Positions 57,117 to 60,561 of a DNA stretch of 64,000 nucleotides are shown here, piece after piece; within the stretch, counting starts at the first letter, position 1, and each line of letters begins with the position of its first letter. The notes below the pieces were generated by a model that searched no databases, had not been told where the DNA came from, and saw only the letters and a program-made list of their open reading frames with translations. This DNA comes from Fluviicola sp. GTDB taxonomy: Bacteria > Bacteroidota > Bacteroidia > Flavobacteriales_D > Crocinitomicaceae. Both the position numbers and the translations under genes were made by a program. Location of the stretch: assembly GCF_039596395.1 (NCBI RefSeq), contig NZ_JBCNJT010000002.1, forward strand, positions 1,364,001 through 1,428,000. Direction: 5' to 3'.

Positions 57117-58925
57117 ATGGCAGCTCACGAAGCACACGCACATCACGACGCTCATGGACATCACCACCATGAAGAAGGTTTTATTTCTAAATATATTTTT
57201 AGTCAAGACCATAAAATGATTGGAAAGCAGTTCCTGATGACTGCTGTATTTATGGGGGTAGTGGCAATGTTACTATCTATCTTGTTCCGTATCCAATTGG
57301 CTTGGCCGGGTGAGGAATCGGATTTCCTGTCATTTTTCCTGGGTGAAACCTGGGCTCCGGGAGGAGTAATGAAAGAAAGCATGTACCTGGGATTGGTTAC
57401 GATCCACGGTACGATCATGGTATTCTTCCTGTTGACAGGTGGTTTGTCTGGTACGTTCTCAAACTTACTTATTCCGTTGCAAATCGGTGCGCGTGATATG
57501 GCTTCAGGTTTCCTGAACATGTTGTCATACTGGATGTTCCTGATCTCTTCTTTGATCATGTTGGCGTCTTTGTTTATCGAAACAGGACCTGCGTCTTCCG
57601 GTTGGACAATCTACCCTCCGTTATCTGCATTGCCACAAGCAATTGAAGGTTCCGGTTTGGGTATGACTATGTGGTTGGTTTCCATGACAATCTTTATCGC
57701 TTCGTCTTTGTTGGGTTCATTGAACTATATCGTGACTATTTTCAACTTGCGTACAAAAGGAATGAAAATGACTCGTTTGCCATTGACAATCTGGGCATTC
57801 TTCATTACTGCGATCTTAGGGGTATTATCCTTCCCGGTTCTATTGTCTGCTGCATTGTTGTTGATGATGGACCGTTTGGCAGGAACTTCTTTCTACCTTT
57901 CTGATATCATTGTTGGATCTGAAATGTTGGAAAACCACGGTGGATCACCATTATTGTACCAGCACTTATTCTGGTTCTTAGGTCACCCGGAAGTATACAT
58001 CGTATTATTACCGGCATTGGGTCTGACGTCGGAGATTATTTCTACCAACTCACGTAAACCGATCTTCGGTTACCGTGCCATGATCGGTTCAATCCTTGCG
58101 ATTGGTTTCTTATCGTTCATTGTATGGGGTCACCACATGTTCATTACAGGTATGAACCCGTTCATCGGATCGGTATTCGTATTTACAACCTTGTTGATTG
58201 CGATTCCTTCTGCTGTAAAAGTGTTTAACTACATCACAACAATCTGGAGAGGATCCAACATCTACACTCCTGCTATGTTGTTCTCAGTAGGATTGGTTTC
58301 TACATTCATTACAGGTGGTGTTACAGGTATTATCCTTGCTGACTCTGCTTTGGATATCGCAGTTCACGATACTTACTTCGTTGTGGCTCACTTCCACATT
58401 GTAATGGGTATGTCGGCAGTATTCGGAATGTTTGCGGGTGTTTACCACTGGTTCCCTAAAATGTACGGACGTATGTTGAACACACGTTTGGGATACGCTC
58501 ACTTCTGGGTAACTATCGTTGGAGCTTACGGAGTATTCTTCCCGATGCACTTCGTTGGATTGGCAGGAGCACCACGTCGTTACTACGATTACTCCGTTTA
58601 CGGTGATTTCGACAAACCGACACAAGAGATGATTATGGACTTGAATGTGATTATCACGGTGTTTGCGATCATCGCGGCATTTGGTCAGTTGATTTTCTTG
58701 TTCAACTTCTTCTACAGTATTTACAGAGGTCCTAGAGCGGTTCAAAACCCTTGGAGATCGAACACATTGGAATGGACAACTCCTGTTGTTCACGTACACG
58801 GAAACTGGCCGGGAGCAATTCCGGAGGTTCACCGTTGGCCTTACGATTACTCGAAGCCAGGAGCAGAAGAGGATTTCATTCCTCAGATTGTTCCTTTAGC
58901 TGAAGGTGAAGAAGGAGATCATTAG
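57117..58925 (+). CDS. coxA: Cytochrome c oxidase subunit I
   Basis: 602 aa, twelve-helix haem-copper oxidase. The GHPEVYI loop (CuB histidine and cross-linked tyrosine), WGHHMFITGMNP (CuB histidines) and VVAHFHIVMG (haem ligands) are present, as in A-type oxidases. The N-terminus is strikingly His-rich (HAHHDAHGHHHHEE). It reduces oxygen to water and pumps protons. The operon ends here; subunit III is not in the window. Confidence 0.95.
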   Translation: MAAHEAHAHHDAHGHHHHEEGFISKYIFSQDHKMIGKQFLMTAVFMGVVAMLLSILFRIQLAWPGEESDFLSFFLGETWAPGGVMKESMYLGLVTIHGTIMVFFLLTGGLSGTFSNLLIPLQIGARDMASGFLNMLSYWMFLISSLIMLASLFIETGPASSGWTIYPPLSALPQAIEGSGLGMTMWLVSMTIFIASSLLGSLNYIVTIFNLRTKGMKMTRLPLTIWAFFITAILGVLSFPVLLSAALLLMMDRLAGTSFYLSDIIVGSEMLENHGGSPLLYQHLFWFLGHPEVYIVLLPALGLTSEIISTNSRKPIFGYRAMIGSILAIGFLSFIVWGHHMFITGMNPFIGSVFVFTTLLIAIPSAVKVFNYITTIWRGSNIYTPAMLFSVGLVSTFITGGVTGIILADSALDIAVHDTYFVVAHFHIVMGMSAVFGMFAGVYHWFPKMYGRMLNTRLGYAHFWVTIVGAYGVFFPMHFVGLAGAPRRYYDYSVYGDFDKPTQEMIMDLNVIITVFAIIAAFGQLIFLFNFFYSIYRGPRAVQNPWRSNTLEWTTPVVHVHGNWPGAIPEVHRWPYDYSKPGAEEDFIPQIVPLAEGEEGDH

Positions 58926-58941
58926 AAATTGATAGATATTC

Positions 58942-58975
58942 AAAGGCGGTTCGAAAGAGTCGCCTTTCTTTTTTT
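58942..58975 (+). terminator. Rho-independent terminator of the act-cox operon
   Basis: AAAGGCG (58942-58948) pairs with CGCCTTT (58961-58967), followed by CTTTTTTT. Confidence 0.88.
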
Positions 58976-58978
58976 GCT

Positions 58979-59504
58979 AACCACATAGTTCACATAGAAC
59001 ACATAGTTAGGATGTCGTTGATTTTTATTATATTAAATATATAATCCATTATTCACAGTAATATGACAAAATCTTATTTAGACGAACTGACTTATGAAAT
59101 TATTGGAGCTGCTATTAGGTCCATACTCAATTAGGCCCAGGGTTATTAGAAAGCATCTATCATGAATGCATGAAAATTGAACTGACAAATAGAAATATTC
59201 CCTTCAGAACCGAAATGTCTGTTCCAATATCCTATAATGGCCAAATATTAGAAACTATATTGCGTTGTGATTTGTATGTTGCAGATTGTGTAGTAGTCGA
59301 GTTAAAAGCGGTCAAAGCTTTTGAACCAATATTCGAAGCGCAGGTACTAACTTATATGAGGCTTTTGGATTCCCCTAAGGGAATACTTATTAACTTCAAT
59401 TGTATGAGTATTTTTCATGGAGGTCAAAAAACACTTGTAGGTGACAAATATCGAATACTTACGGAATAAATAATAACTATGTGTTCTATGTGAACTATGT
59501 GGTT
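58979..59504. mobile_element. Putative GxxExxY mobile unit bounded by perfect 31-bp inverted repeats
   Basis: The left arm (58979-59009) and right arm (59474-59504) are exact reverse complements. Each is built from three ACATAG (or CTATGT) units about 9-10 bp apart. The only gene inside is the GxxExxY nuclease-like pseudogene. The unit is 526 bp long and is wedged between the coxA terminator and the ruvB promoter. No target-site duplication is evident. That it moves is inference. Confidence 0.65.
59063..59469 (+). pseudogene. GxxExxY protein (PDDEXK_3 nuclease-like), one-base frameshift
   Basis: The frame from ATG 59063 reads MTKSYLDELTYEIIGAAI and then breaks after 59116. Restoring one G gives IEVHTQLGPGLLESIYHECM, which contains the family motif G-x-x-E-x-x-Y, and the second frame continues to the stop at 59469. 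Catalytic-type residues of the PD-(D/E)xK fold are present: Asp in LRCDLYV and VELK. Full length would be about 135 aa, normal for the family. The role of these proteins is not established. The deletion is either real decay or a sequencing error. Confidence 0.8.
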
Positions 59505-59524
59505 TAAAGATGATTCTGATTTCG

Positions 59525-59532
59525 TATTTTTG
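59525..59532 (+). promoter_or_regulatory. TAnnTTTG (-7) box before ruvB
   Basis: TATTTTTG ends 9 nt before the ruvB ATG (59542). It lies 20 nt outside the right inverted repeat, so any -33 element would overlap the edge of the mobile unit. Confidence 0.5.
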
Positions 59533-59541
59533 TAACCGTAC

Positions 59542-60561
59542 ATGGAAGAATCATTCGACTACAGATCTGAAGCATCGAATCCTGAGAAGGAATACGACAA
59601 AGTATTGCGCCCGAAATTATTGAACGATTTTGCGGGGCAACCTCAGGTCGTGGAGAATCTCGAGATCTTTGTGAAAGCTGCTGTAAAGCGTGACGAACCA
59701 TTGGACCACGTCTTGTTGCACGGTCCTCCGGGACTTGGAAAAACGACTTTGGCCAATATTATTGCGAATGAATTGAATGTGGGATTTAAAGTCACCAGCG
59801 GGCCTGTTTTGGATAAACCGGGTGATCTGGCAGGGCTTTTGACCAATCTCGGTAAGGGCGATGTTCTTTTTATTGATGAGATCCATCGGTTGAGCCCGGT
59901 CGTAGAAGAATATCTTTATTCGGCAATGGAAGATTACTGCATCGATATCCTCATTGATTCAGGAGCGAATGCACGGACTGTACAGATCAGTTTGAACCCT
60001 TTTACACTTATCGGTGCTACAACTCGCTCAGGATTGCTTACAGCGCCTTTAAGAGCACGTTTCGGGATCAACTCGCGTTTGGAGTATTACAACGTGGAAA
60101 CACTCGCTTCTATCGTTGAACGTTCGGCAGAATTGCTCGACATTCCGATCCAGGAGCAGGCAGCTTTTGAAATATCCCGGAGAAGCCGCGGAACACCACG
60201 TATCGCCAATGCCATTTTACGTCGCGTGCGTGACTTTGCACAGGTAAAAGGAGACGGAACAATCACCTTGGCGATTACACAGCATGCTTTGGATGCATTG
60301 AACGTGGATAAATACGGTTTGGATGAAATGGATAACCGCATTTTGAAAACACTGATTGATAAATTCAAAGGTGGGCCTGTAGGATTGACGACCATTGCCA
60401 CAGCGATCGGGGAAAATGCCGGAACGCTGGAAGAAGTTTACGAACCGTTTTTGATCCAGGAAGGATTTTTAATGCGAACACCACGTGGTAGAAAAGCAAC
60501 CGAAAAAGCATTTAAGCACCTGGGCTTTGATATGGGCTGGCTGCAGGGAGGATTGTTTTAA
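59542..60561 (+). CDS. ruvB: Holliday junction branch migration ATPase RuvB
   Basis: 339 aa, normal length. Walker [13 protein letters not shown], Walker [11 protein letters not shown], sensor [18 protein letters not shown] and the C-terminal winged-helix end ([20 protein letters not shown]) are all intact. RuvB drives branch migration with RuvA during recombination and repair. ruvA and ruvC are not adjacent. A perfect palindrome lies downstream, before the convergent gene. Confidence 0.96.

Follow-up and report, generated by a model that had tools for sequence, protein, structure and literature searches.

A decayed GxxExxY nuclease gene between inverted CACATAG arrays and the wider occurrence of this gene-plus-array architecture in bacteria and archaea

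A decayed unit at the coxA-ruvB junction

The window, i.e., the whole 64,000-nt stretch of Fluviicola sp. DNA that was analyzed, contains a compact unit at the junction of coxA and ruvB. Two arms of 31 nt each, 100% complementary and separated by 464 nt, enclose a single gene. The features of the locus are as follows (positions in the window).

57117..58925, + strand: coxA, cytochrome oxidase subunit I, the upstream host gene (ORF and sequence; empty or decayed junctions in relatives)
58942..58967, + strand: intrinsic terminator of the coxA operon, directly outside the unit
58979..59009, + strand: left arm, an inverted array of three CACATAG units (repeat comparison; CACATAG arrays elsewhere in the genome)
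59018..59045, + strand: possible internal promoter, TTGATT-16-TATAAT (consensus match only, not above chance)
59064..59469, + strand: GxxExxY (TIGR04256/PDDEXK_3) gene, frameshifted near 59116-59119, with an open C-terminal frame at 59170-59469 (profiles and ORFs; intact homologue L118)
59474..59504, - strand: right arm, a perfect inverted copy of the left arm (repeat comparison)
59542..60561, + strand: ruvB, the downstream host gene, on the same strand as the gene of the unit (ORF and sequence; junctions of relatives)

Each arm is built as CACATAG-NN-CACATAG-NN-CACATAG, i.e., three words spaced 9 bp apart. By simple arithmetic, the chance of a perfect 31-bp inverted pair within a kilobase is about 1e-13. 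Both the perfect 31-bp inverted repeats described in an earlier note on this DNA and its placement of the unit behind an operon terminator are confirmed: the coxA terminator is separate from the unit and lies just 5' of the left arm, with ruvB following downstream. The arms pair as a long stem in the RNA fold (z -4.4). No transposase gene is present in the unit, the nuclease gene being the sole ORF between the arms. Rfam gave no match in 58800-59650, and the site is a junction of protein genes, not the inside of a 23S rRNA gene.

The enclosed gene matched TIGR04256 (GxxExxY; E = 1.1e-24, 87.1 bits, cut-off 35) and PF13366 (PDDEXK_3; E = 1.2e-23, 84.2 bits, cut-off 22), where a profile match over the curated cut-off defined family membership. 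These profiles uphold the earlier note on the PDDEXK_3-type GxxExxY identity of the gene between the arms, but a frameshift had been overlooked and the reading frame is broken. The frame opening at ATG 59064 stops at 59136, a one-base frameshift lies near 59116-59119, and the GxxExxY motif and the remainder of the gene read on in another frame. As read from its sequence, the window copy is a pseudogene whose protein can no longer be made. Homologues of the same clade are mixed in this respect, since two in relatives are open (L118, L119) and three others are broken (L043, L115, L116).

The predicted fold of GxxExxY proteins

To our knowledge, no function has been assigned to GxxExxY proteins. 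Their structure is predicted with confidence (mean pLDDT 94), and the top structural match was PDB 4ic1, SSO0001, a Cas4 nuclease (VIA-align Z 9.9 over 99 residues; Foldseek probability 1.0, E about 2e-3). Invariant residues among 38 homologues include E24, Y27, D64, E74, K76, Q88, and Y92. The pattern D...ExK...QxxxY is that of RecB/Cas4 nucleases, and the conserved D64, E74-x-K76, and Q88xxxY92 fit it. Weak matches to the Pfam Cas4 profile were found in 28 of the 38 homologues, and a search of defense families returned weak Cas4, type IIG, and DRT-type matches only.

The predicted fold is therefore nearest to that of Cas4, and the PD-(D/E)xK nuclease fold that the earlier note had given for the family is borne out in the model. 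While GxxExxY proteins resemble Cas4/RecB nucleases in fold and in the D...ExK...QxxxY residues, they differ in being about 120 residues long and in being encoded alone between repeats. They also lack the four-cysteine Fe-S cluster, which is absent from the consensus of the 38 homologues, where one cysteine is largely conserved.

Inverted word arrays flank most GxxExxY genes

We aligned the upstream flank of each GxxExxY gene to the reverse-complemented downstream flank and scored arms at a threshold of at least 14. Among 93 loci of the window's phylum (set 1), 66% reached this score compared with 4.5% of mismatched flanks. Set 2 comprised 77 loci across GTDB phyla, including Planctomycetota, Cyanobacteria, Chloroflexi, Proteobacteria, Verrucomicrobiota, and methanogenic archaea; here 70% reached it, against 7.6% of mismatched flanks and 2.9% of 137 neighboring ORFs of the same loci. 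About two thirds of GxxExxY genes thus lie between inverted arms of short tandem units, compared with 3-8% of controls, and about a third of the loci are without clear arms. The check for inverted repeats at many GxxExxY genes, which had been proposed from the window alone, was positive in both sets.

The arms hold two to four words each, the commonest being CACAGAG, CGCAAAG, CGCAGAG, CACAAAG, CACGGAG, and CACGAAG. Their consensus is C-R-C-N-R-A-G with a start-to-start distance of 8-11 bp, and of 100 arms that could be oriented, 95 pointed inward. In set 2, 48% of loci had inward-facing two-unit arrays on either side of the gene, versus 0.7% of neighboring ORFs, and 6.5% had outward-facing ones. 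In set 1, such two-sided arrays were observed at 42% of loci versus 27% of mismatched flank pairs; this motif control is high because the words are common to many loci, and the alignment test is the sharper of the two as it also uses the spacers.

A GxxExxY match is present in about half of the sampled genomes of the window's phylum, at 0 to 12 copies per genome. In a comparison of 244 genomes, an exact three-word array occurred in 31 of the 120 gene-bearing genomes and in 9 of the 124 that lack the gene (p = 1e-4). The total numbers of such arrays were 204 and 19, respectively, and several of the cases in gene-less genomes resemble coding repeats. That the gene-plus-inverted-arrays architecture is general across bacteria and archaea is well supported by these observations.

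At seven loci (L134, L181, L143, L135, L089, L157, L103), the GxxExxY gene is embedded in a longer palindromic array that is itself repeated in tandem, and both direct and inverted repeats flank it.

Genes of another family, S23/four-helix-bundle (TIGR02436), also lie between inverted arrays of short words at 30 loci of the window's phylum (L267-L296). The words are of TTAGCTATTAGC, AAGTATCAAGAT, and CTGGCTACTGGC types, and 57% of loci scored at least 14 versus 3.8% of mismatched flanks. The CRCNRAG word was not found around the S23 genes at these 30 loci.

Arm copies elsewhere in the genome

A search with the window unit gave 37 matches in the 4.64-Mb genome, and the three-word pattern with up to three mismatches was found at 17 places compared with none for the reversed control. 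The matches include solo arms, tandem arms, and gene-less inverted pairs of about 80-160 bp (C3:77461, C2:346197, C1:1576029, and C3:483334), as well as a longer pair, also gene-less, at C1:1047512. Both the solo arms and the pairs are intergenic and often have T runs after them. Repeats without the gene, an observation that the earlier note had counted against its own reading, do therefore occur; yet at least some of them appear to be short derivatives of the unit rather than ordinary terminators, as described below for C3:483334.

The genome contains five GxxExxY genes and two fragments. A second full unit (L043) has perfect 30-bp arms around a broken gene, and L038 is a deleted unit. Three other GxxExxY genes of this genome use words different from CACATAG: L046 has a perfect 20-bp pair of CACGAATT words, while L044 and L045 have repeats of CGCAAAG and CGCAGAT type.

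At two further places in the genome (L033, G000 C1:277380-278380; L037, G000 C3:200040-200640), CACATAG arms occur within longer tandem repeats of about 150 and 215 bp, which also contain a GCGAAGCGAAAC-type stretch.

Presence, absence, and decay at orthologous sites

Empty coxA-ruvB junctions in relatives, for which the earlier note had suggested a search, were found in six outgroup genomes (G005, G009, G010, G011, G014, and G022), where the junction is without arms. Among closer genomes, the junction of G007 holds an arm pair of 112 bp and that of G002 a remnant of 95 bp; G008 has a short scar of one word there, G013 a single arm, and G006 a decayed gene. This distribution fits one old insertion followed by decay, of which the window would hold the longest copy, and may also have come about by multiple losses. 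A second comparison concerns the 86-bp arm pair of the window's genome (G000 C3:483334-483419), whose orthologue in G008 is a full unit in which the gene is open. The pair is probably a short, gene-less derivative of the full unit. Gene-less pairs and solo arms occupy the place of full units at some loci.

We also followed two loci through one genus (g31). At the first, a full unit is common to species at 72-88% DNA identity, and others carry either short inverted arrays built of different words or a scar with one arm. Of the species read at the second locus, three carry a full unit and three have clean empty sites (21-35 bp); arm pairs or single arms with the same word are present in others, and a few species have arm pairs of unrelated words. 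Different array families therefore occupy the same intergenic slots. At both the coxA-ruvB junction and the second g31 locus, the flanks of the empty sites are too diverged for any target-site duplication to be read.

The L155 and L174 loci of genus g31 (L297-L345, L375-L424) each present one slot with different word families in different species, such that some slots seem to attract these elements repeatedly.

Arm words follow protein clades

We tested coupling between word and protein on a tree of 106 proteins, with word labels shuffled 2000 times. The second base of the word (CAC/CGC) required 17 changes on the tree compared with a shuffled mean of 31.9 (minimum 21), and the word end required 25 compared with 39.8 (minimum 32). 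The nearest protein carried the same label in 83% (CAC/CGC) and 77% (word end) of cases, whereas 52% and 41% are expected by chance. When nearest neighbors were restricted to other families, agreement was 84 of 103 and 68 of 100, with the two naming systems left unmatched. The window's clade uses rare TAG-type words, and these occur again with the nearest relatives of the window's protein in two other taxonomic families (L164, L174). Word and protein clade are thus coupled, which would fit a protein that recognizes its word, or a gene and arms that are passed on together; such joint inheritance could produce the coupling without recognition.

Selection, tempo, and mobility

The 11 aligned orthologues of the first g31 locus gave a median dN/dS of 0.077 at a median dS of 0.93, a ratio indicating that, across many species, GxxExxY genes are kept vertically at a fixed locus by purifying selection. 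For 10 of these orthologues, average identity was 94% in the arms, 73-74% in the 100 bp next to the arm on its inner side, and 74-92% over the gene. Changes in the arms are mostly one-sided, and pairing is therefore not strictly enforced. Concerted change of the two arms was considered and set aside: the same two-base change occurs in both arms of one species, and this one shared double change supports neither strict pairing nor gene conversion.

Within each of five genomes that have 8-12 copies, DNA identity between separate copies was never above 75%. Recent transposition was rejected on this basis, as the only near-identical sequences were overlapping pieces of one tandem locus. Carriage as plasmid or phage cargo was likewise dismissed: the gene occurred in 8 of 72,556 plasmid records and in none of the phage records, and a scan of IMG/VR gave three contigs with the gene, one of them with word arms.

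One plasmid record, a 25-kb sequence of Bacteroides finegoldii (NZ_OY725952.1; L265), holds a GxxExxY gene in sense between radA and a gene for a FAD-dependent protein; the record also bears chromosomal-type genes.

Relation to known systems and interpretation

REPtrons, in which a TnpA_REP/RAYT gene is associated with REP/REPIN sequences, consist of a long-lived gene, for the most part vertically inherited, and its cognate repeats, with short palindromic derivatives in scattered positions, and few are on plasmids (PMC8266576, PMC3116915). The GxxExxY units share the mostly vertical gene, the cognate repeats that both flank the gene and are scattered in the genome, and the scarcity on plasmids. 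They differ in their enzyme, a Cas4/RecB-type PD-(D/E)xK nuclease instead of a HUH (Y1) transposase, in arms that are arrays of a 7-bp word instead of single hairpins, and in having several paralogous units with different words in one genome. Because the defining HUH transposase is absent, the comparison is one of analogy, not membership. The gene-less arm pairs recall MITEs in size and structure, and one stands where a relative holds a full unit, but MITEs derive from a parent transposase whereas the candidate parent here encodes only a nuclease. Similarly, the window unit differs from a classical transposon or insertion sequence in having no transposase gene. The TAACTGA heptamer repeats of Beggiatoaceae, Cyanobacteria, and Bacteroidetes are short tandem direct repeats in intergenic DNA, with a word of 7 bp and a patchy distribution (PMC4679880); our arrays are alike in word length, intergenic tandem arrangement, and patchiness, but they consist of another word and form inverted arms around a nuclease gene.

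The main rival to a REPtron-like reading is an RNA-level role like that of intervening sequences (IVS) of 23S rRNA, since the gene lies in sense within operons, the arms form a long stem in RNA, and S23 genes too are flanked by arrays. The arms would pair in read-through transcripts, the hairpin would be excised (e.g., by RNase III), and the gene would be expressed from the host operon. The IVS of Coxiella, a selfish element of 428 nt, has an ORF and a terminal stem of 28 bp at which RNase III cuts, and S23 is the protein of 23S rRNA intervening sequences (PMC4990558). The resemblance extends to small size, one short ORF in the sense of host transcription, and long terminal inverted repeats. 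The GxxExxY gene is in sense with both neighbors at 108 of 142 loci and antisense to both at 11, but this bias is about that of ordinary genes (45:8 for control small ORFs). Moreover, pairing needs neither a sequence-specific word nor its coupling to protein clades, the unit sits outside rRNA and has no Rfam match, its protein is unrelated to S23, and its arms are made of a shared tandem word; we consider this role unlikely. A host function, in which an ordinary chromosomal nuclease gene has its own operators or terminators and the scattered arrays are regulatory, would agree with the low dN/dS at the g31 locus, with arms conserved above neighboring non-coding DNA, and with the rarity on plasmids and absence from phage records. 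It accounts poorly for the patchy presence with clean empty sites and decayed copies, the variable copy number with frequent pseudogenes, the inverted symmetry around the gene itself, and the similar arm pairs in unrelated slots, and we hold it to be slightly less likely still.

The earlier note had proposed a transposase-less mobile or homing unit. The unit is real and recurs across phyla, with empty sites and no transposase, and its arms, arm-pair derivatives, and many copies per genome would suit an element that jumps by means of its own nuclease. The lack of near-identical separate copies in the five multi-copy genomes, the near-absence from plasmids and phages, the broken gene of the window copy, and the purifying selection on the family speak against present-day movement; no target duplication could be read at the empty sites, whose flanks are strongly diverged. 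Nothing indicates that the window copy moves now, and we regard current activity of such elements as improbable. Action of the nuclease on the repeats, which the earlier note had suggested, would fit the coupling of word and clade. An origin of the arms as ordinary bidirectional terminators, or as repeats that surround an unrelated gene by chance, would agree with the intergenic solo arms and pairs and the T runs behind them. All flank and ORF controls, the separate true terminator of coxA, the inward orientation, and the coupling of word and clade oppose this origin, which was rejected as very improbable.

The reading that we favor, and to which we give an even chance, is that the window unit is a decayed member of a REPtron-like gene-plus-cognate-repeat system that has a Cas4/RecB-type nuclease and non-autonomous derivatives. 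In this model, the small GxxExxY nuclease would recognize the tandem words of the inverted arrays around its own gene, possibly by binding the words, with their spacing near one DNA turn, or the hairpin that they form. It may then nick or cut at the words, and repair could copy arms or whole units into intergenic slots. Internal deletion would leave short MITE-like arm pairs, perhaps moved in trans. By analogy, GxxExxY genes would behave like domesticated REPtron transposases, being long-lived and vertical with scattered non-autonomous repeats. The wider proposal, that GxxExxY proteins are the enzymes of a pan-prokaryotic system of this kind, in which a minimal Cas4-type nuclease recognizes CRCNRAG-type words, each clade its own, and drives the copying of arrays, is one that we hold tentatively, at a little under even chances.

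We found no description of GxxExxY genes with word arrays in the open-access literature, which does not imply its absence elsewhere. The broader pattern is of more interest than the window copy. If the nuclease acts on the arrays, dispersed bacterial repeats would have a second class of enzyme behind them, unrelated to the first, and the units might offer a view of stand-alone Cas4-like nucleases outside CRISPR. The word arrays and their coupling to clades supply a substrate that can be tested directly, along with a naturally occurring set of enzyme-site pairs.

A rearrangement was observed at one locus. Compared with its counterparts in G001 (C12; L116) and G002 (C73; L117), the unit in G008 (C56; L115) is inverted relative to the left flank. 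On its right, other sequence takes the place of the flank over at least 5 kb, as if recombination had made use of the arms.
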